DNA of 20,237 bases, from the IMG/VR virus record IMGVR_UViG_3300017748_000203, positions 1-20,237 of that record; one strand, written 5' to 3'. The notes under the pieces are model-generated. The model did no database searches. It had not been told where the DNA came from and saw only the letters and a program-made list of their open reading frames with translations. Both the position numbers and the translations under genes were made by a program. How positions within the stretch are numbered: the stretch's first letter is position 1; each line of letters begins with the position of its first letter. Below, piece after piece: positions 213 through 20,237 of this stretch. Source of the DNA: a virus.

Positions 213-857
213 ATGCCAATAGATGTAATCAATACTGAACATAATGTTTTTCTAAAAATAAATGCTCATAATAGTTTAGTTGGTAATCAAGTTGATACTA
301 TTCCATTAAAATGTATTTCAGTCGGGGTTGATGTTAGCAGAACAGTTCCGGCATTACCCGTTCCTCTTTCAAGTATAGCAAGGGGTCAATCGGAAACAAT
401 TGCCGTTGATTTAGGAATGGCGAGCAAGAGCATTACATTGAGTGGAGTCATTACAAGCGCAACAATAAGAAGAAGCCATACTAAAAGTTCCGGAACATTT
501 ACTCCAATAAATATGACCGCAGAAGAATTGGCTCAAATAATTGCATCGGGTGTTGATTCTTCCGGTTTGGCTCACTATCAAAATTTTAATGAATTGGTTT
601 TTTTAATAGAATCAAATATTGATGAAAACTATGTTGAAAGAAATGCAGTAGAAAGAATACCATTTACCTTTGCTTCAAGAGGTTCGGCATTAGAAAAAGA
701 TAATGAGAGAGTTCCATTACCTGCTGATTTCCCAACAGACCATAACTCAACCGGATTAACGGGCTTTATTGAAAATTTTAACTTTTCAATAGAAGCAGAA
801 CAACCAACACAGATTACTTTCAGTATGAGTTTTAGAGTGGCTAATATTTTCCCATGA
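213..857 (+). CDS. Tail-associated structural protein, 214 aa, family not recognised
   Basis: This 214-aa protein starts at an ATG four bases after the upstream stop, with a good ribosome-binding site (AGGTGAT, spacing about 4). It has no signal peptide and no membrane segment. The sequence is mixed alpha/beta with many beta-like stretches. A middle segment (around residues 70-90, TIAVDLGMASKSITLSGVI) and a C-terminal beta segment (FSMSFRVANIF) resemble distal-tail or baseplate adaptor proteins that carry one beta-sandwich. It lies between the tape-measure end and the LamG and hub proteins, which is where distal-tail proteins are usually encoded. I do not recognise a specific family. A role as tail tube cap or hub adaptor is inference from position. 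Confidence 0.6.
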   Translation: MPIDVINTEHNVFLKINAHNSLVGNQVDTIPLKCISVGVDVSRTVPALPVPLSSIARGQSETIAVDLGMASKSITLSGVITSATIRRSHTKSSGTFTPINMTAEELAQIIASGVDSSGLAHYQNFNELVFLIESNIDENYVERNAVERIPFTFASRGSALEKDNERVPLPADFPTDHNSTGLTGFIENFNFSIEAEQPTQITFSMSFRVANIFP

Positions 858-867
858 GGCGATTTAA

Positions 868-2013
868 ATGTATGATATTTATGTAGGAAAACAAAGAAGC
901 ATAGTGTTTCCCATTATGTGTAATGCTCATATAAATATTAATTATGCAGATAACATTGTTGATTTTGCTAATAACAATGATACAACAGACGATGTTCCTT
1001 ACGGTGTATGGGGTCATAGCGGGTCTTTTACTTATGAAGCGATATTTACTCCATATGATATTAATGGTATGGGTTCAGGTGGATTGAGAGGCCGTAGTGT
1101 TCAGCAAACTAATGATTTTATAATGCCTCAAGGCGGCTCAAATAAATTAAGTGAAGAATACTTACCTACTGCGAGCAGGTATACGCATAGTATGGTTCTT
1201 TTTCATAATGCTAATCTAACTGTATCTTTGAAAAATACCACAACAAATAACAGTAATCAACCTGCTGAATATAAAATCAAAGTGGATATGAAAATAGGCG
1301 GAATCAATCAGTCTTTTGAAACAGGAACGGTAATTAGTGCAGTATCGGATAAGTCTTGGTTAAAAGGTAATGCAGATAATAATTTTAATTTTTCGGGAAT
1401 TGATGCCGATGGTAAATTAAAATATGAAAGTGTGGGTATAACAAACGCTACTTTTAATGCAGGAGGAACAAGTTTAGAATTAACCGTAAATGGGTCAAGA
1501 CCTGCCTCGCATTTCTTTGAAGGACAAAAATTGTTTGTTAGAGATGGTTTTAATTTTACTGAAATAGGAACAATAGCAAATGGTGGAATTGGAAATCTTA
1601 GTAATAGCGATATTACATTAACTATTAGTGCCTATAATGCTAATATTACTAATGGAAGTGAGATATATATTGAGCCTTTCAAAGAGCCAAAATATGTTAA
1701 GAATATGCATCATGTAGCGGTTATATTTAATGAATTTAATAATTCAGTAGATATTTTTTACAATGGTGGTTTAGTCCATTCCTCTTTTCATAATACAAGT
1801 GGGGTTTTTGAGTTTAGTAGAACAGATTGTTTAATTGGTAGAAATACTACTAATGGCTCAACTTCTGCATCAGCCGCTTATCAATATATGGGAGAAATAC
1901 ACGAAATGTCATTAGAACAAGGAACAAAGAAAAAAATAACTTATACTAATTCTTTATTCCCATTTTTTGATAATACCTTGATGTATCTAAGATTTGAAGA
2001 GGTTGATGAATAA
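868..2013 (+). CDS. LamG/concanavalin-like tail protein with an inserted beta module
   Basis: This 381-aa protein probably sits on the virion tail tip and binds glycans or other surface ligands. Residues about 48-75 (GSFTYEAIFTPYDI) match an early strand of LamG/concanavalin jelly-roll domains. The C-terminal part, about 280-380, carries the typical LamG closing pattern: HHVAVIFNE, then VDIFYNG, then LIGRN, then YMGEIHEMSL. Between them, at about 160-272, is a Gly/Asn-rich beta segment with the pattern GQKLFVRDG...IGTI...LT...GSEIYIEP. The same pattern recurs in the next protein. The ATG at 868 follows AGGCGAT, a near-consensus ribosome-binding site, and another ATG lies at 872 in a different frame. 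The stop overlaps the next start by one base (TAATG). LamG is a fold call, and ligand binding is inference. Confidence 0.7.
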   Translation: MYDIYVGKQRSIVFPIMCNAHININYADNIVDFANNNDTTDDVPYGVWGHSGSFTYEAIFTPYDINGMGSGGLRGRSVQQTNDFIMPQGGSNKLSEEYLPTASRYTHSMVLFHNANLTVSLKNTTTNNSNQPAEYKIKVDMKIGGINQSFETGTVISAVSDKSWLKGNADNNFNFSGIDADGKLKYESVGITNATFNAGGTSLELTVNGSRPASHFFEGQKLFVRDGFNFTEIGTIANGGIGNLSNSDITLTISAYNANITNGSEIYIEPFKEPKYVKNMHHVAVIFNEFNNSVDIFYNGGLVHSSFHNTSGVFEFSRTDCLIGRNTTNGSTSASAAYQYMGEIHEMSLEQGTKKKITYTNSLFPFFDNTLMYLRFEEVDE

Positions 2014-5000
2014 TGTCAATAAGTATCGGAGGTGTCGCTTCTTCCTATAATACAAGCCCAAATAGTTTTTATGATGTTCCCACTAATCCTCGTATTTATA
2101 CTGCTGGATTTAATTTCGCAACGGGAGATAAACTATTTACAATAATATATGAAGATGGGAGCGTATCTAATGATACATTCCAAAGACCTATTTCTTCCGG
2201 TAATATACATACTGAATATTCAAATCTACACGCTACCGATGGATTTTCTATTAGATGTTTTGATAGCCACTCAAACACAGGGCTGAATTTATCAAGTATT
2301 AATTTAGCAAACAATGATTTTTTTGTATTATTACATTCAGATAATATGTATCAATATCACTTTGCTAAAATAACTAAAGTAGTAAGTGCTGATGCACAAG
2401 GAGATAAATTTGAATTTAGTCCAAGATTAGGTAATGAAGTAGCAAAGGGTGTTAAGTTTAAAGTTTTTAAAGGCCCATCTAATACTGATAAAATAGTTGC
2501 TATTTCAGCAGGAATAGACCAACAAATAGGAGATACAATCAATAATGTAGTATCAATGTTCAATATAGCAAGACCCTTCTTTTATTTTTACAATGATAAA
2601 TTAGATAAAAAGAATGAATTAAATCATAATACTAAATATATGTTAAGAATGGGAGATACAAATAGTAATGTAAATTCGGTCACAATAAATACTCATAATC
2701 ATGTTTTTACTACTGTTGCCGACCATAGATATAAGATAATTGATTACAGCAAATTTACTTATAATATTAAATTAGAAGATAAATTAAAATTATTAGACGA
2801 CCCTGATGATGGAACAAGTAATGAAAGTAGCCTTCTTAATTCAACTTATACTACAACAACTGATTATAATAATTGTTTTATTAATGCAAGAAGAGACGCT
2901 AATGACGACCCCTCTTCTTTAGATTTAACCGGCCCGAAAAGATATGTTTATTATAATTTTTCACCCGAAGATAATAATAGAATGCCAATTATTTATGAGT
3001 GTAATATTGCAGATTCATTTGATGCTAAGGCTGGTTATGCTTCTCTTAAATTAATTGATAGCACTAAAAATTTATCAAATAAGGTTTTTAATAATGATAG
3101 ATTATTTGTTAATCAAAAATTAAGTGAAGAAAATTTAAATGAATGGGTTGAAGTTGGAACTATTAATACTTTAGTGAATGCAGGAACACGGACTTATTCT
3201 TTAGAAGGAACAGTTGAAAGACCTAATTTATATTTTAGTGCTACTAATGAAATAAAAATAGGCGATAGGATTTGTATTGTTAATAGTGTTGCATCAACTC
3301 ATAACATTTCTTTAGAAACTCATAGTCGTTTAGCAACAGAATCAATTTTTACAAATGCTACTTCTTTAACTTCTTTCTCTAATGGAACAAAAGTATATAG
3401 AAGAAGATTAAATTCTGTTGATAGCACTTTCTTTACCGGAACAAATATATCAGGAGATAAATTAGAAAGATTAAATTCAATAATTATTTCAAATGAATAT
3501 AAAAACTTTTATTGTCACATGGGTAGTTTTGTGTCAAATGCTGATGAAGATTACGGATTATTGACTTTAACTTTTGAAAATAATTTAATGGATAGCGAAA
3601 CTGCTTTAAGATATGTTTTTGGTGAATTTTTGTTAAATTATCAAATATTTTTTGGAAAGATTGAACAAATAGATAAAAGTTTAGAAAACCAACAAAGCGT
3701 TTTTAAAATTCAAGGAAGAAACACATTGTCTAAATTAGTAGATATTATTATTAATAGAGATACTTTATTTAGTGCTGATTTTATTACAACAGGGTTTAGT
3801 CCATATAACGACCTTTCATTGGTTGGACAGGCTACATGGGGAGGCGGAGCAACAAATATTACTTTTACAAGTGGAGTGACTTTATCCGAAGGCGACCACT
3901 TATGGTCGGATAGTGGATATATAGGGCAAATTTCCGCAAGTGGCTCTAATATAACAAATTATTTTTTAATTAATCCTGCTTCACATGAAAATGGGCCAAC
4001 TACTAATGATAAAAAGGTCTATAAAGAAACAAATAAACATTATATTTTTGGAAAAGCGATGGCTTCAAATTCTTATACTAATTCAGTTACAAGTTTAGCA
4101 GGAGCAAGTGATAAAGGTTTATTTTTTAATGATGGTATGAAACTTAGCGGAACACGAATAGATAATTTGGTTGAATCAACCCCATTAGTCGGTTCTGCCG
4201 AAGATGCTAACATAAAGGCTCAAGGTTTTAACATTAACAAAACTGAAAATTTACTAAACGATTTACCATTCCAAGCAACTATTGATGGATTTACTGATGA
4301 AGTAATTAATACTTTGATTGATTTTACAATTATTGGAGTTAATAAAGACAAATCATTAACTACTGTAAAACTTGCTCCTTATATGCCATTAACTTTAGGA
4401 AGAGAGACAGTTAATTATTTAAATCTTGAACCGCCTTCTTTGGTAAGTTTAGGTAATGTTAGCAGTTATGTTGAAACAGATGCAACAAATGGGAATAGAC
4501 ATATTTTATTAACTACTGAAAGTTTTGGACACTCTACTCAAATGAATCAGTTATACTATTTACGAATTGGCGACCCTTTATTTTGTAATAATCAATTTAT
4601 TGGTAGATTTACAGGGTATCAAACAAGACAGGTTTCCGCATCTAACAGTATAGGAAATGTGGCCGACTCTACTCGTATTTTTATAGATAGAACCGTAAGT
4701 TTAACTGCGGGAGACACAATAACTTGCTTACCTGCTGGCTATGGTAATAGAAACATACCATTACATTTAGTAAATGGAGCGCATTTACATCTAAATAAAA
4801 TGATAGGCTTAATTGGACAAAGAGCAACGAGCGATAGTGTTAGAAAATATAATTATAAATTAGACTACGGAACTACAAGTCAGCAAATAGGACAAAATAC
4901 TTATACAACCGAAGTAGATAATATAAAAAGATACTCCGACCAATTTTACAGAATATTTAATTTAGAAAAGGGTCAAATAGGAGATAAAAAATATAATCTT

Positions 5001-8000
5001 GTTAATGTTAAAGAAGATACTATTGGAGGAAATTCTACACCCCTAAAGGGAGTAAATAAGCCATTTTATTCTTTCTCTCCTATTTTTTATTATTATGCTG
5101 ATACATATAATAAGCACCCTAACTATGCAGTTTCAAATATAATTGAACACATTGGCCAAACAAGTTCTGTAAAAAATAGGTCTTTACCAATTGGCCAAAG
5201 AGGGGTTAGACCAATAACATATTCTAATTTTGCCGATAAAAAGTTTGTTCCTCCAACCTCTAAAAGTTTGATGGGAACAATACAACAAACCTGCACAACT
5301 ACTAATGGAAGCCCTGATGTAGATGTTGAGGATTCATCTAATTTAGTTGTTGGAATGACTGTTGGTGGAGTCGGTATTCCTTTGAATGGAAATTTTGCCG
5401 CTAAAATTCAATCTATAAATAGTAATAATACAACAGAAATAACTTTAGATGTAAATGCTAATGCTAACGGCACTAACACTTTAGTTTTTATTAAACAATA
5501 CAAGGTCAATACCAAAGACAACACTTATCAAGTTCTTTTACCAAATACTCCGAGTAATATATACGGACACAAACCGACTTCCGGTTCGGGAATAGAAAGC
5601 ATATTTAATCCTCTTTTAGTAAGGGATAAATTGCATCAAATTGATAATAAAGCGGCAAGGTTATTTTTATATGGTAATAGGGATATAGAATTTTACACTT
5701 CAAGAAGAAAAGATAGTTTATTAAATAGTGCTACAAGAACATTAAGTAGTTATGGATTATTTTCTATTGATTCTCCTATTAGTTCTACACATTCAGCAGG
5801 TAAAAGCGATGCTTATGGAAATACTGTTTCATCTGTTCATTTTGATACAAGTTATAAACATTCTAATATTATTAACAGTAATAAAACATTATCTAACCTT
5901 AAAAGATTTTCATTGATGAGATTAACTGAATGTGTTTATGATTCATTTTTTAATCCTATAAATCCTGAGTTTGAGGTTTCGGAAGATGCTACCGTTGAAT
6001 CAACAGTTATTAATTCTATAAAGGTGCATGAAACACCGGAAACTATAACCGCAATACCCGCTATTGGTAGTAATGATATTATTTTATCCTCCCCGCCATC
6101 AGTAGGTCTTAGTGTTGGTTGTTTTATTTATGACCGTTTAACTAATAAAATTGTAGGGAGAATTACTGCAATAAACGGTGCAACAATTACTTGTGGAGAT
6201 GGTTTATTTTATACTCGTATAAATGATGGGTTAGGAGGCTCAACTGCAAATAATCATTATACTTCTTCACAAGAAATGTTGTCAGGATTTGCTTATGTTG
6301 CCGGAGATAATTTATTGTATATTAAAAATGCAGATATAGTAAATCCCATAACTATTGGTGGAAGAGAAATTGGTTCAATAATATATGAATATCCTATGGG
6401 TGTTAATAATTTTACAGATTTTAGATTTAAAGCAACTAATATTCATTTATTATATGGAACAATAATGAATAAAAACGACATATTTACAGGAAATAATGAC
6501 CCTCTTGGACAAAATAATGCAGATAATCGCATAACTCCTTCATCTTGGAGTGATTATTATATTGAGAAAAACCCATCTGCGGGAGATTTTCCAACAAGCA
6601 TGAGAACTATAAGAAAAACCACTATTTATGATAAACAAAGCATATTACTTCCTTACGCATTTTTTGGAGCAAATAATAACCACCCGACTAATACTACGGG
6701 AACTCCTGCCCCTACAAATTCTTCCGCTTCCGACCCCGAAGGTTTTTGGAGAGTTGAAACAGTTGATGCTTCCGATAATGATACTATTGAACATTGGGAT
6801 TATTATGGAGATTATTTGTATAATCAACAAGGTCAGCAATTAAATCGTTTATATAGAGACATAAATGATTTTGATATGGTTTGGTTTTTAGATAGATTAA
6901 GATTTGATGGTGGCGCAAAAGATGATGATAAATTAGTATCGTCAATAAAAATGGTTAATCTTAGACCAATAGGAACAGGAAGCGAAGAGGCCAAAATTAA
7001 TTCACATATGGTAAGCCCGTTTTGCACATATGCTTCATTAGGTTTTGTGTTTAGACACGGTGAAGTCGCTATTAACACAGGGCGCAGTATTGTTTATCCT
7101 ATGCTTGGAACTACTACTAATTGTGGGTATGGAATACCATCGGAATCAACAGATAAAGAGCAAACTACCATAAGTGGATATATGGGAATTAAATTACATT
7201 TAGATATGACTAATCAACAAAATCTGCCTATTTCCGGAACAGGTTCTATTGGTAATTATAATCATTCACTTATGATGACGGAAGAAAATACTTTTTTGAA
7301 ATTTGTTGATTTAACAGGTTGTTATCTTGTTCCCGCAGGAAGAGGAAAAAAATACATACGAGGAAATGCGGCAAGTGGGAACTTTTCTTCCGATAATGAA
7401 TTAATGCATAATGATAATGAACTAATATATGTGGTCGCTCATGAAAATGATATGACAACTGAAAATTCTATTTCAACAGCATCAGGGCTTGTTTATGGTA
7501 ATTCTTGTCGTATTATAACAGATAAACCATTAGACAATAGAAAATATAAAATTATGCAACCTAATCCTGTTTGTTTTTGGGAGAAAACACCAAAAGAAAT
7601 AAAACTTAATACATTAAGTTCTGCATATACAAAAAACATGGATAATGAAAATATGATTTCCGAACCGCCTTCATGGAGTAATTATCTAAATTCCGAAGGA
7701 GATGGAAAATCCTCTAAAGAAGGTGTTCAATCAATGTATGTAATAGCCGATTTAGATAATTTAGGAGGACAACATGATTTAGTGGTAAGAACAACTTCTG
7801 CTTTATCTGCTATTTTAAACAATTTAGAAGGTGAATTTTGTTTATCCGATGGAGATAATTCTTTAGTTTGTAATGTAAGAGGAATAGACCAAAATGACAA
7901 TTTAGGATATTATTTAGAATTAGCAGACATAAAGAAATTAAATGGGGTTATTTCTGTTTCCGAAACATTTGAACTATCAGTTAATGGTGATATAAATGAA

Positions 8001-8930
8001 AAAGCAACAAGAGCAGTAATAGGCACAACTGTTGATATATGCAAAGAAATAGAAGAGACAGTTGAAGAACTATTGATAGAAAATGATATTGATTTTCAAT
8101 TAACAAAGGAAGATTATAAGTTATTTGCTTCTCCTAATTTTCAAGGAACAAATTTATTTAACTTGCTTAATTATTTATTAAAACTAAAAGATAAAAAAAT
8201 GGTTAATGTAGGAGGCCAAATCAAAATAATAAATTATGATGATTCAGCCTTTGATGCTAAATATTCTTTTAATGATGATGATATAACAGAAATAAATACT
8301 ACTACATCTAATTTTAACTATTTTAATGAAGTAATTGTTTATGGCAGTAAGCATAAGGCTATTAGAAAAGACTTTAGAGAGATAAAGAAAAACGGAAAAA
8401 AGACATTAGAAATATTTGAAGACAAATTAACTACAAAAGAAGATGTTGAAAGAGAAGCACAAGAAAAGTTAATTATGCACACTCAATTACAAGAATTGGT
8501 TGAGTGTAAAATACCTGTTTCTAAAATTAAATGTTTAGATGTAGGAGAAACTATTATTTTACAGTCTCAAGTTGCAGGAATAAAGCCAAGACCGTTTATG
8601 ATATTAGAAAAAATACAAAGTTTTAACGGATTAGTTGGTTTAAAGTTAGGTAAATACATTAAAGGAATAGAAGATACAATTGCTGATTTACTTCTTGATA
8701 GTAAGCAGACTAAATCGTATATAAGAAATAAAAATTTCAATGTTAATGAAAACGGTTTTGATTTCTTTGACGGTATGAAAATAAATGAACTACACCTATT
8801 GATTAGAAAGAAGGCTGTTTCGGGAGGATTCTTTTTCGGTTTCGGAACACAGTTAAATACAAACACAAACCCACTTGGGTTTGGTGGAGCAAGCATTACT
8901 TACACTACTTTAAAGGAGGAAAGTTTATGA
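2013..8930 (+). CDS. Giant tail hub/tip protein (2305 aa) with repeated beta modules
   Basis: This is the largest gene in the window and probably encodes the central tail tip or baseplate hub. Residues about 2007-2230 resemble the second half of phage hub proteins (gp27/gpD/tail-endopeptidase type): a helical piece ending NLLNYLLKLKDKKMV, then FNEVIVYGSKH, then a helix with DVEREAQEKL, then a beta-barrel around KCLDVGETIIL. Residues about 500-585 (VFGEFLLNYQIFFGKIEQI then FKIQGRNTLSKL) look like an earlier hub segment. The roughly 1400 residues between appear to be insertions. Several Gly-Asp beta modules recur at about 100-155, 360-424, 620-672, 850-910, 1115-1163, 1367-1400 and 1939-1993. 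No signal peptide or membrane segment is seen. The end overlaps the next gene as ATGA. The hub call is inference from motifs and position. Confidence 0.7.
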   Translation: MSISIGGVASSYNTSPNSFYDVPTNPRIYTAGFNFATGDKLFTIIYEDGSVSNDTFQRPISSGNIHTEYSNLHATDGFSIRCFDSHSNTGLNLSSINLANNDFFVLLHSDNMYQYHFAKITKVVSADAQGDKFEFSPRLGNEVAKGVKFKVFKGPSNTDKIVAISAGIDQQIGDTINNVVSMFNIARPFFYFYNDKLDKKNELNHNTKYMLRMGDTNSNVNSVTINTHNHVFTTVADHRYKIIDYSKFTYNIKLEDKLKLLDDPDDGTSNESSLLNSTYTTTTDYNNCFINARRDANDDPSSLDLTGPKRYVYYNFSPEDNNRMPIIYECNIADSFDAKAGYASLKLIDSTKNLSNKVFNNDRLFVNQKLSEENLNEWVEVGTINTLVNAGTRTYSLEGTVERPNLYFSATNEIKIGDRICIVNSVASTHNISLETHSRLATESIFTNATSLTSFSNGTKVYRRRLNSVDSTFFTGTNISGDKLERLNSIIISNEYKNFYCHMGSFVSNADEDYGLLTLTFENNLMDSETALRYVFGEFLLNYQIFFGKIEQIDKSLENQQSVFKIQGRNTLSKLVDIIINRDTLFSADFITTGFSPYNDLSLVGQATWGGGATNITFTSGVTLSEGDHLWSDSGYIGQISASGSNITNYFLINPASHENGPTTNDKKVYKETNKHYIFGKAMASNSYTNSVTSLAGASDKGLFFNDGMKLSGTRIDNLVESTPLVGSAEDANIKAQGFNINKTENLLNDLPFQATIDGFTDEVINTLIDFTIIGVNKDKSLTTVKLAPYMPLTLGRETVNYLNLEPPSLVSLGNVSSYVETDATNGNRHILLTTESFGHSTQMNQLYYLRIGDPLFCNNQFIGRFTGYQTRQVSASNSIGNVADSTRIFIDRTVSLTAGDTITCLPAGYGNRNIPLHLVNGAHLHLNKMIGLIGQRATSDSVRKYNYKLDYGTTSQQIGQNTYTTEVDNIKRYSDQFYRIFNLEKGQIGDKKYNLVNVKEDTIGGNSTPLKGVNKPFYSFSPIFYYYADTYNKHPNYAVSNIIEHIGQTSSVKNRSLPIGQRGVRPITYSNFADKKFVPPTSKSLMGTIQQTCTTTNGSPDVDVEDSSNLVVGMTVGGVGIPLNGNFAAKIQSINSNNTTEITLDVNANANGTNTLVFIKQYKVNTKDNTYQVLLPNTPSNIYGHKPTSGSGIESIFNPLLVRDKLHQIDNKAARLFLYGNRDIEFYTSRRKDSLLNSATRTLSSYGLFSIDSPISSTHSAGKSDAYGNTVSSVHFDTSYKHSNIINSNKTLSNLKRFSLMRLTECVYDSFFNPINPEFEVSEDATVESTVINSIKVHETPETITAIPAIGSNDIILSSPPSVGLSVGCFIYDRLTNKIVGRITAINGATITCGDGLFYTRINDGLGGSTANNHYTSSQEMLSGFAYVAGDNLLYIKNADIVNPITIGGREIGSIIYEYPMGVNNFTDFRFKATNIHLLYGTIMNKNDIFTGNNDPLGQNNADNRITPSSWSDYYIEKNPSAGDFPTSMRTIRKTTIYDKQSILLPYAFFGANNNHPTNTTGTPAPTNSSASDPEGFWRVETVDASDNDTIEHWDYYGDYLYNQQGQQLNRLYRDINDFDMVWFLDRLRFDGGAKDDDKLVSSIKMVNLRPIGTGSEEAKINSHMVSPFCTYASLGFVFRHGEVAINTGRSIVYPMLGTTTNCGYGIPSESTDKEQTTISGYMGIKLHLDMTNQQNLPISGTGSIGNYNHSLMMTEENTFLKFVDLTGCYLVPAGRGKKYIRGNAASGNFSSDNELMHNDNELIYVVAHENDMTTENSISTASGLVYGNSCRIITDKPLDNRKYKIMQPNPVCFWEKTPKEIKLNTLSSAYTKNMDNENMISEPPSWSNYLNSEGDGKSSKEGVQSMYVIADLDNLGGQHDLVVRTTSALSAILNNLEGEFCLSDGDNSLVCNVRGIDQNDNLGYYLELADIKKLNGVISVSETFELSVNGDINEKATRAVIGTTVDICKEIEETVEELLIENDIDFQLTKEDYKLFASPNFQGTNLFNLLNYLLKLKDKKMVNVGGQIKIINYDDSAFDAKYSFNDDDITEINTTTSNFNYFNEVIVYGSKHKAIRKDFREIKKNGKKTLEIFEDKLTTKEDVEREAQEKLIMHTQLQELVECKIPVSKIKCLDVGETIILQSQVAGIKPRPFMILEKIQSFNGLVGLKLGKYIKGIEDTIADLLLDSKQTKSYIRNKNFNVNENGFDFFDGMKINELHLLIRKKAVSGGFFFGFGTQLNTNTNPLGFGGASITYTTLKEESL
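8915..8919 (+). promoter_or_regulatory. Strong ribosome-binding site GGAGG for the collar-like gene
   Basis: GGAGG lies seven bases before the ATG at 8927, inside the end of the giant hub gene. It fixes the start of the 111-aa protein and suggests it is translated independently as well as by ATGA coupling. Confidence 0.8.
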
Positions 8931-9262
8931 TAACAGATAAATTAAAAGAAATATTAGCAACCCGAATAAAAGACATAGTTGATGAAGGCAAGTTAGGGTT
9001 AGGTGGAAATACTACAAGCCCGTTAGCCCTTGATTTAGATGTTCCAATAACAGGGTCGCCAACAATTAGTGTTGAAAAATCAAATACTAATGTGGTGCAG
9101 ATAATGGTTGAGGAAGTAGGTTCTAATATAACAGGAAAAATGATAAGAGAAATGGCTTTTTTTGATGGAACAGATATGCTTGGTAGAGTCAATTTTGAAG
9201 CAGTTGGGCCATTTAGCGAAACAGAAAGAATACAGATTTTTTTGACAGTAGAGGTTGAGTAA
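8927..9262 (+). CDS. Small tail protein resembling a tail-fibre collar domain (111 aa)
   Basis: This 111-aa protein starts at an ATGA overlap with the hub gene. Its C-terminal half follows a pattern seen in N-terminal collar domains of phage tail fibres (DUF3751-like): a strand (VVQIMVEE), then GSNITGKMIREMAFFDG, then LGRVNFE, then a final strand (RIQIFLTVEVE). The equivalent motif in those families is an IRELGLFD-like turn followed by a strand that ends in a repeated hydrophobic pattern. It sits between the hub and a long fibre-like protein, which fits an adaptor that joins the fibre to the tail tip. The family match is from pattern memory and is moderate. No membrane segment or cysteine is present. 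Confidence 0.55.
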   Translation: MITDKLKEILATRIKDIVDEGKLGLGGNTTSPLALDLDVPITGSPTISVEKSNTNVVQIMVEEVGSNITGKMIREMAFFDGTDMLGRVNFEAVGPFSETERIQIFLTVEVE

Positions 9263-9263
9263 T

Positions 9264-11387
9264 ATGAGTAAAGCAATCAATAATCCGAATTTTATAGCCA
9301 CAAATGATGAACCGGAAGCACAAGCACCGATAACAGGACAAATAGTTGATGGGTTTGATTTTCCACATACCGGATTAATCAAAGCATTCAATTTAGCATG
9401 TGCAGGAAGTTATGCTATTAATGGTTTTAATGGAACAAATATTAACGCTACACAGGCTACATTTGCGGGAGGCGATGTTTTCTTAAAAGGAGAATTAGTT
9501 CCAATAACAGGTGCAACAGTCACTATAACTGCTACTTCATATAATCAACATTTACTTGTAGCAAGAGGCGGTACTGTAGTTTTGATTCAAGGAACTGCTT
9601 CTGATGTAGTGCCTTCTTTTGCTGATGGAGATGTAATTATAGCCCTTCTAAAATATACAGGTAGCAACCCTATGCAAATACAATATTTGACTTTTAATCA
9701 AACTTCTAAATCTTTAAGCGTAGGGCATATCGCAAATGGAGAATATGTAGAATCGGGAAAAATTACAGGAGATTCTAACAGTTTAGATATTGTTTCTACT
9801 CCGACTAATGCAGATATTAACATCACACCAAACGGAAACGGTAAAATTGTCCTTGATGGATTGAATTGGCCTATTGCTGACGGAAATGCGGCTCAAGTCT
9901 TAACAACAGATGGCAATAATGGTCTATTTTTCAGCACTATTAGTTCTAACTCTATTACTGATGCTGATGGAGATACAAAGATACAGGTTGAGGAATCTGC
10001 TGATGAAGATAAAATTCGTTTTGATACTGCTAACAATGAAAGAATGATTATTGATAATGTTGGAAATGTAGGAATAGGAACATCTACTCCTGCCTTTGCA
10101 TTAGATGTAGCAAATGGAGGACTTAGGACTTCTGCTAATATTGTAAGTTTAACAGATATTTCAGCAAATAATGGAAGTGTTAGTGGAAATGTTATTTCAG
10201 CAACAACCACTTTAGGTAATAGTGGTGCAAGAGTTAAAAGTATCTTAAAATCCGCAAGAGTTCAAGGACATGCCGCTTCTACTGTATATGCACATGCAAC
10301 TATAAGTCAAGCAGTACAACATGGCGGTATGATTGATGCCGCAAAAGAAATATATTATGTTGGTATGAATACTGATGGTGGTGCTTCTCATCAAATGATA
10401 CAAAGCGGCCCGCTATTTTTTAATGGAATGCCAGTACCAGCCGGTTCAAATAACCCTTCGGATTTTTATACAATAACAGAAGCAAATTACAATGTATTAA
10501 ACTCCGGTGATGTAGTAAATGGCCATACTTATGTTGCAGAAAGTGTTTTTGGAGGCGGAGCAATATTTGTACCATTAATAGCACCGGAATTAGTATCAAA
10601 TACAGAAGTAATTATACATAATGTGACAGGGTTTGCATTATATGTTATTGTTATTAATCCTACTTTAGACCCAAGCGTACCTGACTTTATATCAAGAAAT
10701 AGATTTAATGGAGGTTATCATCATCATACCCAGTTTGCTAATATTACTGGTAATGATAGACTTTTTAATTTAGGAAGGCTATTATTAGGTAATCCTTCTT
10801 CTTCTCTTTATAATTTTGCACCTTCTCCGCCCACATTACCTCATTCTAATCCTTACAATAAAGATGCTATGCTAATAAAACCAAGAGAATCAGTAAGGCT
10901 AACTGCGATGAAAGCCTCGGCAGGAGAAATAGGTAATGACTTTGAAATAGATTGGCATACTCAACAAGGATTATTAAGTAATGTTGTTGGAGGCCAATAT
11001 GAAAATTCTCAATGGATGATTACTTCTTCTTCTAACGGTACTGATAAAGCACAAATGGTTGAATTATTAGATTCATTTATGCATGTACCCGTTCATTATA
11101 CCGGAACAACTTTTATTTGCGAAGGAGATAATGAAGTAGTATTGCCTGACAATCCCGAAAATGGTACGCAATTTGCTTTTTTATGTATACAAGGTACGAC
11201 AACAATTACTTTACCACAAGCGGCAAACTCAGTCACTCAATTTGGACAAAACTTTTTACCACCTGCATTTTTTGAAGCAGGTACAAACCCTGTTTCAAGT
11301 ATAATTTTAACTGCCGGAGATACCCGTACTTTTGTTGCTTATACATCTCAACAAGGAAGTACGAGGGGCTATCAAGTAATAGGTTGA
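9264..11387 (+). CDS. Tail fibre / receptor-binding protein (707 aa)
   Basis: This protein is likely a tail fibre that contacts the host surface. Residues about 1-170 form a beta-rich head. Residues about 170-290 show the layout common in phage fibres with trimeric shafts: SNSLDIVSTPTNADINITPNG, then DADGDTKIQVEESADEDKI, then the signature GNVGIGTSTP. Residues 320-707 are a unique beta-rich C-terminal part with His-rich (YHHHTQF) and Asn/Gly-rich turns. I see no S74 (intramolecular chaperone) motif at the C-terminus. I chose the ATG at 9264 over an in-frame TTG at 9255, because GAGGTTGA lies about six bases upstream and the previous stop ends at 9262. The C-terminal half may determine host specificity, which is inference. 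Confidence 0.7.
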   Translation: MSKAINNPNFIATNDEPEAQAPITGQIVDGFDFPHTGLIKAFNLACAGSYAINGFNGTNINATQATFAGGDVFLKGELVPITGATVTITATSYNQHLLVARGGTVVLIQGTASDVVPSFADGDVIIALLKYTGSNPMQIQYLTFNQTSKSLSVGHIANGEYVESGKITGDSNSLDIVSTPTNADINITPNGNGKIVLDGLNWPIADGNAAQVLTTDGNNGLFFSTISSNSITDADGDTKIQVEESADEDKIRFDTANNERMIIDNVGNVGIGTSTPAFALDVANGGLRTSANIVSLTDISANNGSVSGNVISATTTLGNSGARVKSILKSARVQGHAASTVYAHATISQAVQHGGMIDAAKEIYYVGMNTDGGASHQMIQSGPLFFNGMPVPAGSNNPSDFYTITEANYNVLNSGDVVNGHTYVAESVFGGGAIFVPLIAPELVSNTEVIIHNVTGFALYVIVINPTLDPSVPDFISRNRFNGGYHHHTQFANITGNDRLFNLGRLLLGNPSSSLYNFAPSPPTLPHSNPYNKDAMLIKPRESVRLTAMKASAGEIGNDFEIDWHTQQGLLSNVVGGQYENSQWMITSSSNGTDKAQMVELLDSFMHVPVHYTGTTFICEGDNEVVLPDNPENGTQFAFLCIQGTTTITLPQAANSVTQFGQNFLPPAFFEAGTNPVSSIILTAGDTRTFVAYTSQQGSTRGYQVIG

Positions 11388-17141: not shown

Positions 17142-18077
17142 TCAACCCCATGTATCTTCTTGTGCCGCAGGACAAATACCAAAATAAGAGCATGAAGAAC
17201 ACATCTTGTAAAAGAAAGTTGGTGTAAATTCTTTTATTTCATATGCTTTTATCAGTTTAGCAATATTTAATTTAACAGAAGACATAGACCTTTTCTTTAC
17301 TTCTTCAACTGTAATATGATTAGCCGCAGGATAATACCAACCCCAATGAGTGACCTTCATATCTTTGTTTAAACCATGTTTAGCCAAAACTTCTTCACTA
17401 CAATTCTCTATCATTAGTTGATAAAAAGCCATTTCTTGACGCATAGAAGTTGTTTTGTAATCTTTCCAACCTCCTGTTTTATATTCAAAAGGAATTAAAT
17501 TACCATTCTCTATAAATATTCTATCAATAATACCTTGAAGTCTAACCGTATATGGTCTGTTAAGAGTAAATTCTTGATAATTATTCCATGCTCCGCCTTT
17601 ATATGGGCCAATTGGAATAACTATTTCTGTATCAAACATTTCTTCATTAACAATAGGAAGAAACTCATGTAGTTTCTCTTCTGATTTTGCTTCAATAAAT
17701 CGTTGTGCTTCAAATGCCGCTACATTTAGTGTAATGTCAAAATAATCATCAACAGGCATTAGACTTGTGCAATATTCTAAGACTTCACTATTATTCATAT
17801 TCTCGGCCTTTTTAATATCAAAAACATTAAAGAAATCTTCACGATGATTATGTAATACCGTTCCTTTACGCATGGCTTCGGTTTGGTCTTGTGGCCTTCT
17901 CTCAATATAATTAAATTGATACTTTTTAGGACACCAATTAAATGAACCTAAAGAAGATTTACTAATCTTCAATATTGGTTTAGATGGGTCATCAAAATTT
18001 TCCCATTCCCATTTATATGTAAAATCCTGCATACTTGCTATTCTTGCTTTATATTTTTCATCTTTATTCAAAACCAT
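17142..18077 (-). CDS. Cas4/AddB-like PD-(D/E)XK nuclease with iron-sulfur cysteines
   Basis: The protein is a probable RecB-family nuclease that resects or trims DNA. It has SKSSLGSFNWCPKKY (Cys49), a GTVLH motif (His76), GIIDRIF (Asp185), PFEYKTGG (Glu198, Lys200), and QEMAFYQLM (Gln214, Tyr219). These are the D, ExK and QxxxY residues of Cas4/RecB-like nucleases. The C-terminus has CSSCSYFGIC (Cys293, Cys296, Cys302), and with Cys49 this makes the four-cysteine 4Fe-4S site of Cas4 and AddB. Known Cas4 proteins are often about 200 aa, so this one is longer. I give the ATG at 18077. GGAGGA directly abuts that ATG, so the true start may be the TTG at 18071, which has good spacing and a TTGA overlap with the polymerase stop. 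No cas1 or cas2 is present. Confidence 0.87.
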   Translation of the reverse strand: MVLNKDEKYKARIASMQDFTYKWEWENFDDPSKPILKISKSSLGSFNWCPKKYQFNYIERRPQDQTEAMRKGTVLHNHREDFFNVFDIKKAENMNNSEVLEYCTSLMPVDDYFDITLNVAAFEAQRFIEAKSEEKLHEFLPIVNEEMFDTEIVIPIGPYKGGAWNNYQEFTLNRPYTVRLQGIIDRIFIENGNLIPFEYKTGGWKDYKTTSMRQEMAFYQLMIENCSEEVLAKHGLNKDMKVTHWGWYYPAANHITVEEVKKRSMSSVKLNIAKLIKAYEIKEFTPTFFYKMCSSCSYFGICPAAQEDTWG

Positions 18078-18958
18078 TCCTCCAAACTTCTTTGTATTGT
18101 TCCCGTTCTTATTGATGTTAAATCCCATGCCATAGCACTAAAAATAGGCTCGGCCTTCTTTATTACCTGCTCGGCATAGTGCTTGAGGTCGGGATTACAA
18201 CCCTCAAACTCCTTCGCAGTTGTGCATGATACATACTCAACTACTTTTCTTTCCTTTGTTAAAGGGTGAATATAATACTCACTATTGTTTAATACTTTCA
18301 TAAAGATATAGGAATCATCAAATTCCGTATCTTTACTCCAAGCATAAATAACTCCTGCGATACCCGAACCTATTGTTGGTTTTTTACCTTTAAGAGTTGT
18401 GAATTTCTTTGTATGTGTAGCGCATTTACTACATACAGAATGCTCTAATTCTAAACATTCTTTTAGATGATATTTAGCATTACAATCCGGACATTTAACC
18501 ATGAGTCTATTAGTTCTCAATCTACTTCTTTTAATAAGAGGCGTTAATCCTAAATTACCATCTAAAACATCTGCATATTTATTATGCAGATATTGGACTA
18601 TTTGTGCCTGTGAATTTTGGTTCACCCACATTTTTAATACATCTGTTTGAACTTCTTTAGCCAACTTAGTTTCACTAACTCTTTTGGCAGTAAATCCGGT
18701 CATGCTGAATTTAGGCTCATCAAGCCATTCTCCATCTTCCCAAGATACTAAACCTGCATTTCTGTTTCTAACAGTTCCAACGCCTAATGCTGAAAAATAC
18801 TTTTCAAACTCCAATACTACGGGGTGTTCATCTAACCCCATAACATTTGGAAAATGTTCTCTTACGCTTTCTTCTATCTCCTTGATAGCCGTCTGCGCTT
18901 TTTCAACAGAATCTATTTGAACATAAATAGAATCCGTATGCCCATAAACTACTTTCAT
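18068..18958 (-). CDS. DNA polymerase B, C-terminal part: motif C and thumb (split gene)
   Basis: This 296-aa protein carries the second half of a family B DNA polymerase. It begins immediately with motif C, KVVYGHTDSIYV at residues 2-13. Canonical motif C is YGDTDS; His7 replaces the first Asp while the catalytic second Asp (Asp9) is kept. The KKxYxG-like region is changed to RNRNAGL. It is followed by TGFTAKRVSETKLAKEVQ and a helical thumb. A zinc-ribbon-like insertion with CPDC (156-159), Cys168 and CSKC (176-179) lies in the thumb, before KPTIGSGIAGV. The N-terminal partner is encoded upstream (19763-20237), and five small genes lie between. Both parts are likely needed to form an active polymerase. 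The ATG at 18958 follows GAGATGAT. The stop overlaps the nuclease gene. Confidence 0.92.
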   Translation of the reverse strand: MKVVYGHTDSIYVQIDSVEKAQTAIKEIEESVREHFPNVMGLDEHPVVLEFEKYFSALGVGTVRNRNAGLVSWEDGEWLDEPKFSMTGFTAKRVSETKLAKEVQTDVLKMWVNQNSQAQIVQYLHNKYADVLDGNLGLTPLIKRSRLRTNRLMVKCPDCNAKYHLKECLELEHSVCSKCATHTKKFTTLKGKKPTIGSGIAGVIYAWSKDTEFDDSYIFMKVLNNSEYYIHPLTKERKVVEYVSCTTAKEFEGCNPDLKHYAEQVIKKAEPIFSAMAWDLTSIRTGTIQRSLEEWF

Positions 18959-19300: not shown

Positions 19301-19451
19301 TTTTATTCACTCCTTGCTCAATATCAATAATGACCGCATTACGCTTTAAATTATTCATCATTTGAAATATCTCCTTTACTTCTTTTAAAGTAATATCCCA
19401 TGTTTCTTCGGTATCATACGATACCTTTACACTTACAATTTTAGTTCTCAT
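19278..19451 (-). CDS. Small unknown protein (57 aa) between the polymerase halves
   Basis: The ATG at 19451 follows AGGAGG by seven to eight bases, so I chose it over the ATG at 19505. The protein is predicted alpha/beta: a strand (TKIVSVKVSYD), a helix (LKEVKEIFQMMNNLKR), a strand (AVIIDIEQ), and a short charged tail (NKNDDGQDE). No conserved motif is visible. It overlaps the upstream wHTH-like gene by 11 bases and the downstream membrane protein gene by 23 bases. No family is recognised. Confidence 0.6.
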   Translation of the reverse strand: MRTKIVSVKVSYDTEETWDITLKEVKEIFQMMNNLKRNAVIIDIEQGVNKNDDGQDE

Positions 19452-19668
19452 GTTTAATCCTCCTGTAAATCTTTCTTCCTTTAGTTGTTTTAATAGGCTC
19501 AACATATTTTTGTCTATTTAAATACCACCCGATAGCGGCATTATCACAAACAAAATTTGTTCCTCTTGTTTCAATTAGTTTTTCTTTTATTGACATAGCG
19601 AAAAATTCTTCGCCAATATCAAGGGATAAAACTAATTCATCTATCCATCTTTTAATATGGGTATTCAT
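19441..19668 (-). CDS. Small winged-helix-like protein (75 aa) between the polymerase halves
   Basis: The ATG at 19668 overlaps the stop of the upstream zinc-finger gene as ATGA and follows GGAGATGAAAAA. The order of helices followed by a C-terminal strand pair fits a winged helix: WIDELVLSLD, then AMSIKEKLIETRG, then NAAIGWYLNRQKYVEPI, then a wing ending KGRKIYRRI. Such small proteins usually bind DNA as repressors or accessory replication factors. This call is from pattern only and could be wrong. It could regulate the operon that encodes the polymerase parts. Confidence 0.55.
   Translation of the reverse strand: MNTHIKRWIDELVLSLDIGEEFFAMSIKEKLIETRGTNFVCDNAAIGWYLNRQKYVEPIKTTKGRKIYRRIKHEN
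19459..19463 (-). promoter_or_regulatory. Ribosome-binding site GGAGG for the 57-aa gene
   Basis: GGAGG lies seven bases before the ATG at 19451, within the upstream wHTH-like gene, and sets the shorter 57-aa start. Confidence 0.75.
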
Positions 19669-19766
19669 TTTTTCATCTCCTGTTCTACGGCACATCTTTT
19701 ACAATGATATTTGCCTTCAAATTGAGGGTTATGTGCTAATGGTTTTTTACATTTAATTCTTTTCAT
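19665..19766 (-). CDS. Tiny zinc-finger-like protein (33 aa) right after the polymerase N-terminal part
   Basis: The frame starts at 19766 as an ATGA overlap with the stop of the polymerase N-terminal gene, and ends as an ATGA overlap with the wHTH-like gene. GGAGATGAAAAT lies just upstream of the ATG. The protein has Cys6, His12 and then HCKRC (Cys22, Cys25), a pattern compatible with a small zinc finger. At 33 residues it is among the shortest plausible genes here, but the double ATGA coupling and the ribosome-binding site support it. No family is recognised. Confidence 0.65.
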   Translation of the reverse strand: MKRIKCKKPLAHNPQFEGKYHCKRCAVEQEMKK

Positions 19767-20237
19767 ATTTTCATCTCCTTCGCCTTAAACGCTGCTAATC
19801 TAATAGCCTCTCTTGCACTTGCTGTTATAGAAGCCGCTAAATTAACATTAGCCCAACCAAATCCTTGAAAGGCAATAATTCCATAAAATGAAGCCATTAA
19901 ACGCTTTACTGCCATTTGATTATTATACCATTTTTGATACTCGCCACTATCATTAGTGGCTTTCATTCTTTTCTTGTAGTCGTTTCTTAACTCTTTTAGT
20001 TCTAATACTGCTCTTGGCAAAAGACCTAATTCATCTGTTTTAAAATACAACATATGTTTCATTTTAACAGGGCTAAAATCTCTCGGTGTTAGAATATTAA
20101 CTGCAAATTCTGTGGGTTCTTCACTAATAGTTTCCCAACTTATATTGCGAGCAATCATCATTGAAGGATATAGACCTGCAAAATCAAAAGCCGCAACATT
20201 AAGATGTAATCCTTGAGTTTGTTCACTTAGAGGGTCA
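19763..20237 (-). CDS. DNA polymerase B, N-terminal part: motifs A and B (split gene, 5' truncated)
   Basis: The frame is open to the right window edge, so the true start is outside. The visible part begins about 20 residues before motif A, FDFAGLYPSMM, at the start of the palm. It continues through the fingers with LPRAVLELKELRNDYKKRM and motif B, KRLMASFYG, where Ala replaces the usual Asn. It ends with a palm helix (ASAREAIRLAAFKAKEMKI) and a stop at 19763. In a single-chain polymerase the next residues would be motif C, which here starts a separate protein at 18958. There is no N-intein cysteine or motif at the end. Any exonuclease or N-terminal domain would lie beyond the window. This gene precedes the small-gene cassette in the leftward operon. 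Confidence 0.93.
   Translation of the reverse strand, partial: DPLSEQTQGLHLNVAAFDFAGLYPSMMIARNISWETISEEPTEFAVNILTPRDFSPVKMKHMLYFKTDELGLLPRAVLELKELRNDYKKRMKATNDSGEYQKWYNNQMAVKRLMASFYGIIAFQGFGWANVNLAASITASAREAIRLAAFKAKEMKI

Follow-up and report, generated by a model that had tools for sequence, protein, structure and literature searches.

The 20,237-nucleotide stretch of viral DNA considered here (IMG/VR virus record IMGVR_UViG_3300017748_000203, hereafter the window) encodes a protein of 2305 amino acids (aa) that is most probably the tail hub of an archaeal-type tailed virus, bearing related beta-modules that are partly inserted, turn over among relatives and act as ornaments. The large N-terminal part of the hub and its LamG-like neighbour carry copies of one beta-module family, which in related viruses has entered or left many places, some of them inside older modules, and is also found in the tail tube and in a connector-like protein. 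A first-pass annotation, made from the letters and reading frames of the window, had set the frames of the two proteins correctly (Table 1) and had proposed eight related segments, seven in the hub and one in the LamG-like protein, as decoration domains inserted into a hub core. Four of these segments are firmly related and a fifth (850-910) possibly so, whereas 360-424 belongs mostly to another predicted barrel and 100-155 and 1939-1993 show no detectable relation to the family.

Modules shared by the hub and the LamG-like protein

At the DNA level the window holds no tandem arrays and the matches within it are short and imperfect, of 21-34 nucleotides in the 20 families listed of 42, in agreement with the earlier remark that long identical repeats are lacking. 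The shared amino acid motif that had been described proved real in part: GDx[LI][FY] occurs in the hub four times against 0.18 expected and the longer form GD...I[GV]x[IV] four times against 0.15 (500 shuffles), whereas IGxI by itself occurs three times against 0.99, a count that 7% of shuffles reach, and both GD forms are absent from the LamG-like protein, in which IGxI is found twice against 0.15 expected.

The hub was compared with itself at the profile level using 223 profile windows of 80 columns, with no preset places and with reversed windows as the control. The best pair joins residues 605-654 and 1345-1396 (score 44.9, E 1.6e-6) and the second joins 601-640 and 810-866 (29.6, E 0.004); the pairs 618-660 with 408-442 and 809-866 with 1337-1384 are weak. 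Rows scoring above 40 number 29 forward and none reversed, although the best reversed-window score (32.1) exceeds that of the second forward pair, the 15 listed control rows all being residues 905/907-935 against their own reversed copy. Self-alignment of the whole hub profile with hhalign gave no row, and one trial window pair from a 9-sequence alignment (effective number of sequences, Neff, about 2) gave nothing. This comparison, which the first-pass annotation had recommended as a check, upheld the pairing of modules A and C (Table 1).

Converged profiles give the same pairing greater weight. Module A matches module C at 99.3% (score 89) and, over nearly its full length, matches at 90% (score 29) a family grown from a module in the protein that we take, from gene order, to be connector-like in the related contig L006, and for which there is no Pfam match; we refer to this family as family I. 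The profile of region 185-270 of the LamG-like protein matches family I at 98.5% (71), A at 93.6% (36.5) and C at 84.6% (30.8), where the highest score among 156 reversed profile pairs is 16.0. Lower in the range lie family I with C (47%, 21.5), A with D (51%, 21.1), 404-466 with A (22%, 18.9) and D with C (14%, 17), and a forward control, 2160-2216, scores 16 with both A and C; the 96% match between 346-416 and 404-466 reflects shared columns only. An iterated hidden Markov model (HMM) search finds 183 family I domains in 127 proteins and 0 in reversed decoys, in a protein set from which exact duplicates alone were removed, so that near-identical relatives are counted repeatedly. The search with the module A profile, which also recovers module C, yields 119 domains, and again 0 in reversed decoys; they belong to 74 proteins, and at least two copies are present in 45 of these. 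On this profile evidence, well above the reversed controls, A, B, C and the LamG-like copy (E) form one family of beta-modules of about 60-95 residues.

The modules extend beyond the segments from which they were first recognised: 620-672 lies within A, 1115-1163 within B, which starts at about 1088, 1367-1400 within C and, in the LamG-like protein, 205-272 corresponds to E. The segment at 850-910 lies in module D, which possibly belongs to the family; the window pair with A and a similar predicted strand order speak for it, but LamG-like residues 260-345, mostly outside module E, score as much with D as A does, and for this reason D is graded as possible rather than probable. Profile scores of 88-156, 346-416 and 1920-1993 are within the control range. 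The first and last of these regions are occupied in nearly all other complete hubs (0.99-1.00 and 0.98-1.00), and 1920-1993 is perhaps part of the hub core; residues 1939-1993 have a predicted strand order similar to that of the modules despite the absence of a profile relation above controls. Most of 360-424 falls within another predicted barrel.

None of ten other open reading frames (ORFs) of the window that were searched yielded a full family I domain, the best rows being short fragments with values of 0.0036 (residues 28-46 of the protein at 9255-11387) and 0.11 (111-aa protein). The N-terminus of the tail-tube protein resembles family I weakly (38.6%, score 22.2), which we regard as a lead only.

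Table 1. Features of the window, with positions counted from its first nucleotide
Feature	Position	Strand	Basis or remark
Module A, hub 600-674	3810-4034	+	profile matches to C (99.3%), family I (90%) and the LamG module (93.6%); fold match 9n71_A
Module B, hub 1088-1161, lineage-specific insertion (family I)	5274-5495	+	iterated HMM ~7e-14 (hub 1093-1160)
Module C, hub 1345-1440	6045-6332	+	window pair with A, E 1.6e-6; fold match 9n71_A
Possible module D, hub 822-908	4476-4736	+	mixed evidence
Module E, LamG-like residues 192-271 (family I)	1441-1680	+	iterated HMM ~5e-11 (195-268)
Different predicted barrel, hub 378-464	3144-3404	+	VIA-align; covers most of 360-424
Hub 88-156	2274-2480	+	no detectable relation to modules
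Hub 1920-1993	7770-7991	+	no detectable relation to modules
Hub core, residues 2008-2225	8034-8687	+	VIA-align fold matches
Hub protein, 2305 aa	2013-8930	+	ORF; predicted C-terminal fold matches gp27/gp44-type hubs
LamG-like neighbour, 381 aa	868-2013	+	ORF; label "LamG-like" from the first-pass annotation; no Pfam match
214-aa protein	213-857	+	ORF
111-, 710- and 222-aa proteins	3' of hub (710-aa protein, 9255-11387)	+	ORFs
Replication genes		-	Pfam matches: RNase H-like, ERCC4 and HhH, PD-(D/E)XK, PolB

Predicted folds of the modules

In the structure model of hub 342-1165, which has a mean predicted local distance difference test (pLDDT) score of 67.1, module A resembles residues 103-179 of 9n71_A (VIA-align Z 7.0, 69 residues, 2.5 Å, 17% identity), and in the other model residues 1339-1443, which contain module C, resemble residues 104-181 of the same chain (Z 8.1, 74 residues, 2.4 Å, 27% identity). 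Two modules modelled separately therefore align to one region of one solved phage tail-tube protein; the C fold also resembles residues 284-372 of the tailspike 4ru4_B (Z 7.6). Structural comparison, the second check that had been recommended, thus gives A and C a common target, whereas two other regions find other barrels: 378-464 aligns with a VP1 capsid chain, domain 2 of EF-Tu/EF1A, RimM and riboflavin synthase (Z 6-7.3), and 798-909, the D region, with Gar1/NAF1-like barrels (Z about 6). The predicted strand order of A, C and D is much alike, with a strand, a long loop or helix, a short strand, a long strand and two further strands. A search of BFVD with the 342-1165 model gave three strong matches, to the unnamed viral proteins A0A516M0A8, A0A516LI86 and A0A516LT38.

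Identity of the hub

The earlier description of the large protein as hub-like, with a hub core, is borne out by its predicted C-terminal fold, by which it is a Caudoviricetes baseplate hub of the gp27/gp44 type. For the 1160-2305 model, whose mean pLDDT is 64.8, Foldseek gives as best match the MuSo2 43-kDa tail protein (3.2e-9), followed by T5, T1, lambda and Mu gp44, with Haloferax tailed virus 1 (HFTV1) at rank 21; all 39 matches at E<=1e-3 are by title tail-tip, hub, spike or tail-lysin chains. VIA-align locates the matching region at model residues 849-1066, i.e. hub 2008-2225, with Z up to 11.4. Within it, model residues 922-1066 match a JBD30 baseplate chain (Z 11.4, 136 aligned, 4.2 Å), the lambda tail tip (Z 10.9), HFTV1 (Z 10.3) and T5 (Z 9.6), and the matches that begin at model residues 848-850 (Mu gp44, MuSo2 and gp27) have lower Z and a larger root-mean-square deviation (RMSD). 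The lambda and T5 tail-tip hubs are known as gpJ and pb3. Whole-model TM-scores for these matches are low (~0.1) and whole-length RMSDs large, as would be expected of a long model of low confidence in which a single domain finds a counterpart.

Gene order in the relatives L006, L010 and L014 runs tail tube, long protein, 212-216-aa protein, LamG-like protein and hub, and the L006 tail tube has a Phage_tube_2 match; the tape-measure label of the long protein and the distal-tail label in this order are our assumptions, with no family match behind them. Whole-hub searches of Pfam, PHROGs and PDB sequences gave nothing significant, and in tblastn searches none of 50,697 phage records matched the window hub, the L010 hub or the module, the last of these absences saying little because the module queries are rich in Ser and Thr and may have been masked.

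Insertion, turnover and nesting among relatives

Relatives were collected at the protein level, a hub search giving six near relatives and more distant ones being reached by alignment or via those six. An alignment of the LamG-like protein found 420 related stretches, from which the 80 best loci were retained, and 70 hubs of at least 1500 aa (that of the window and 69 from the loci, with duplicate contig fetches excluded) were reduced to 52 non-redundant hubs of 1574-2903 aa, 46 of them complete, including that of the window, and six running off their contig. These were aligned with MAFFT and a quick tree was built on 674 core columns. Only columns that have a window-hub residue were used, so that inserts of other hubs fall between columns; the sites of family I modules were assigned in bins set by hand. 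Labels such as L006 denote contigs of relatives.

Residues 1088-1161 are an insertion in the window's own lineage. Module B is present in three of the 52 hubs, all of one clade, which requires one change on the tree; the two closest outgroups, L017 and L018, lack the block, and in L018 its flanks are recognisable. The block 1093-1160 has 64-68 residues in the three hubs, and occupancy of 1121-1160 is 0.00 in complete hubs outside the clade. Three near loci, L002, L004 and L005, show the same insert, and it is therefore not an assembly error of one contig. The nearest kin of module B outside its clade are the connector modules, with up to 53% identity against at most 44% for other copies, which hints at a connector-like source.

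Insertion, which had been suggested for all the segments, is thus shown directly for module B and is not supported for every one of them, since A (occupancy 0.86-1.00 in complete relatives), C (0.79-0.92 save for one stretch at 0.30) and the possible D (0.77-0.94) stand in the same place in most relatives and are old parts of the hub. Besides the insert, the most variable stretch among relatives is hub 1400-1620 (window 6210-6872), where occupancy falls to 0.16.

Family I as a whole is found in 25 of the 52 hubs, at 17 sites, with a minimum of 22 changes on the quick tree. Among complete proteins it also occurs in 58 of 65 of the LamG-like kind and in three of 46 tail-tube matches. The connector-like proteins that lack family I are 372-376 aa long and those that have it 430-443 aa, leaving aside two further ORFs caught by the connector search: one of 163 aa in L062, and one of 469 aa in L086 that is situated behind the LamG-like gene and is probably part of a hub. 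On the tree 17 of 25 connector-like proteins carry the module, with three changes. Copies also lie within other modules: a family I copy is nested inside the module A region in L070 and L093, two are nested inside the module D region in L064, L057, L070, L071 and L093, and one adjoins module C in L055, L063, L068 and L082.

Three observations on these relatives can be added. The richest family I set seen is that of a single clade of hubs of 2807-2903 aa (L047, L053, L057, L059, L064, L070, L071 and L093), each with three to six modules. Among the 46 complete tail-tube matches (e.g. L006:2234-3835), 39 are 515-560 aa long; the remaining seven, of 603-752 aa, comprise three with a recognisable family I module and four (L072, L078, L018 and L028) with other, unexplained extra sequence. 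In L086 the hub behind the LamG-like gene appears split into at least two frames (7870-9276, 469 aa, and 9307-11022, an open 572 aa).

Strength of the evidence and alternative explanations

Several points weigh against the picture of related, partly mobile ornaments. Both structure models are of middling confidence (pLDDT 64.8 and 67.1), and hub 1065-1165, including module B, is predicted below pLDDT 50, so that the place of B in the family is a matter of sequence kinship; VIA-align warns, moreover, that Z below 8 may reflect merely a common arrangement. In the profile self-comparison, rows above 20 number 275 forward and 132 reversed, and an unexpected forward pair, LamG-like 260-345 with D, reaches 22.9. 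Scores near 20 accordingly prove little, which touches D, 404-466, the N-terminus of the tail tube and family I with C (21.5). In the 1093-1160 block the other hubs align 0-29 residues, which we take as alignment noise. The sites and change counts hang on one MAFFT alignment, the hand-made bins and one quick tree, and the changes counted may be losses. The 12 most similar within-locus copy pairs, of 190, have only 50-61% of nucleotides in common, so no recent copying is visible.

We nevertheless favour the ornament reading. An outward position fits the presence of the modules in hub, connector-like, tube and LamG-like proteins, their separate presence and absence, and their insertion into loops, as with the immunoglobulin-like (Ig-like) domains of lambda and T5. 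The modules may thus occupy outward loops and fold on their own, and such ornaments could either bind weakly to the S-layer or glycans of the host surface or hold adjacent subunits together, surface adhesion or stabilisation being the function that we would expect. Their turnover may reflect selection at the virus-host contact.

A stronger version, which we consider conceivable but doubtful, is that the virion genes of this virus family share a mobile pool of domains, whose copies pass between the hub, LamG-like, tail-tube and connector-like genes and into one another, turning over the tail surface as a host-range or escape system.

It is unlikely, though less so than the explanations below, that the modules have a defined ligand, as domains that bind carbohydrate or act as enzymes, and are not mere ornaments. 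Their tail-tip position would suit such a role, and PMC12494034 reports that the HFTV1 hub has some DALI similarity to xylanases and glycosaminidases; on the other hand, 36 diverse members gave no convincing match in Pfam or NCBIfam (single hits 0.019 or weaker), and no conserved active site was seen in the family alignment, in which one column reaches at least 90% conservation and none is invariant.

Ancestral duplications within the hub that never moved, with loss and alignment error accounting for presence and absence in relatives, would explain why A, C and D stand in the same place in most relatives; we give this very little credence, because 1088-1161 occurs in one clade of three only, with recognisable flanks in L018, and because family I copies lie inside A- and D-region loops of other lineages and in different genes. 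Slightly less probable still is that there are no true repeats and that generic beta-rich tail sequence (Gly-Asp turns, hydrophobic strands, much Ser and Thr) is alike by composition, for although three of the eight segments stay at control level, bare IGxI is not clearly enriched in the hub and the sole PDB hit of family I at E<=1 is strongly composition-biased, composition-keeping reversed decoys yield 0 domains against 183 (family I) and 119 (A), and the decisive profile scores are 29-89 against at most 16.0 in 156 reversed pairs.

Genomic context and affiliation of the virus

Gene content and opposed transcription suggest that this marine virus resembles the magroviruses and probably infects archaea. 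Magroviruses, which infect marine group II archaea, have PolB, ERCC4-type and PD-(D/E)XK nucleases and opposed gene blocks (PMC12999244 and PMC10160649). Of the features of Magrovirales, the window has PolB, an ERCC4-type nuclease, a PD-(D/E)XK nuclease and oppositely transcribed replication and virion genes, and in its 20.2 kb no ligase, glycosylase, portal or capsid gene was seen. The PolB piece has eight matches among phage records, all to haloarchaeal tailed viruses, and for the ERCC4 protein the match is to a single Methanobacteriales-associated virus.

On the minus strand PolB is divided between 18068-18958 and 19763-20236, and the gap of about 800 bp holds an 84-aa ORF (19441-19695). 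The consensus of PolB motif C is YGDTDS, and the downstream piece starts at this motif, as MKVVYGHTDS, with His replacing the first Asp; the PolB piece of the distant relative L010 (22559-23512) starts in the same way, His included, so that the change is conserved there. Behind the hub, the 710-aa protein corresponds to proteins of 492 aa in L003 and 611 aa in L006, which it resembles at its N-terminus but not in length or in its middle sequence; it is perhaps a variable, fibre-like protein.

Comparison with known systems

Searches of PHROGs with single modules matched phrog_17105 in 11 of the 36 members (best 3.6e-10) and the virion structural proteins phrog_5838, 6002 and 6005 in six or seven members each, and these matches are likely to be relatives in other phages. 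Against PDB sequences the family I profile has one hit at E<=1, chain 1 of 8eci, a 126-residue chain entitled 'Decoration protein' (E 1.8e-4, 59 positions); the likeness lies in this sequence hit alone and is a lead only, the composition bias being 17.6 against a score of 23.7 bits. The A and C profiles have no significant match there and do not match 9n71 at E<=1. That structure is the tail tube of the Acinetobacter phage Mystique, so the likeness of its residues 103-181 to A and C is one of predicted folds with no sequence match. In the collection of papers searched, none joined magrovirus, tail and immunoglobulin, none joined 8ECI and decoration protein, and of the five listed among 180 papers for the Mystique tail tube none had a title on its structure.

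With the hubs of lambda, T5 and HFTV1 and those of the gp27/gp44 type, the window hub has its predicted C-terminal hub domains in common. The matched chains are shorter than 1000 residues except for one of 1420, whereas the window hub has 2305, most of them in the N-terminal elaboration. Among archaeal viruses in the literature consulted, HFTV1 comes closest as a structural precedent: PMC12494034 describes three flexible globular domains that project from its hub and may help in docking or S-layer passage.

Tail ornaments are best known as Ig-like folds in phages, with Big_1 and Big_2 ornaments of tail-tube proteins such as the C-domain of lambda gpV and T5 pb6, and domain2 of YSD1 is a domain inserted in a tube protein; lambda tails form even without their Ig-like domain (PMC8718954). 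Both these ornaments, whose protrusion is known for lambda and T5 from the same paper, and the window modules are beta-domains added to a tail protein. At the sequence level the module family appears separate from phage Ig-like domains, no Ig-like model appearing among the Pfam and NCBIfam matches of the 36 members at E<=0.1, so that the kind of thing is known and the family itself is unmatched in those two databases. What is unusual is the extent, with many sites, four proteins and nesting: the window hub has several copies and its relatives nest copies in each other, unlike lambda and T5, and in this group of marine viruses the module is repeated, inserted and nested across four virion proteins. 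With 52 aligned hubs and 17 occupied sites, gain and loss of tail ornaments become countable on a tree, and the occupied sites help to show which parts of a hub 2000-2900 residues long are core and which are decoration. Should the doubtful mobile pool prove true, it would be the archaeal-virus counterpart of the promiscuous Ig-like domains of phages.

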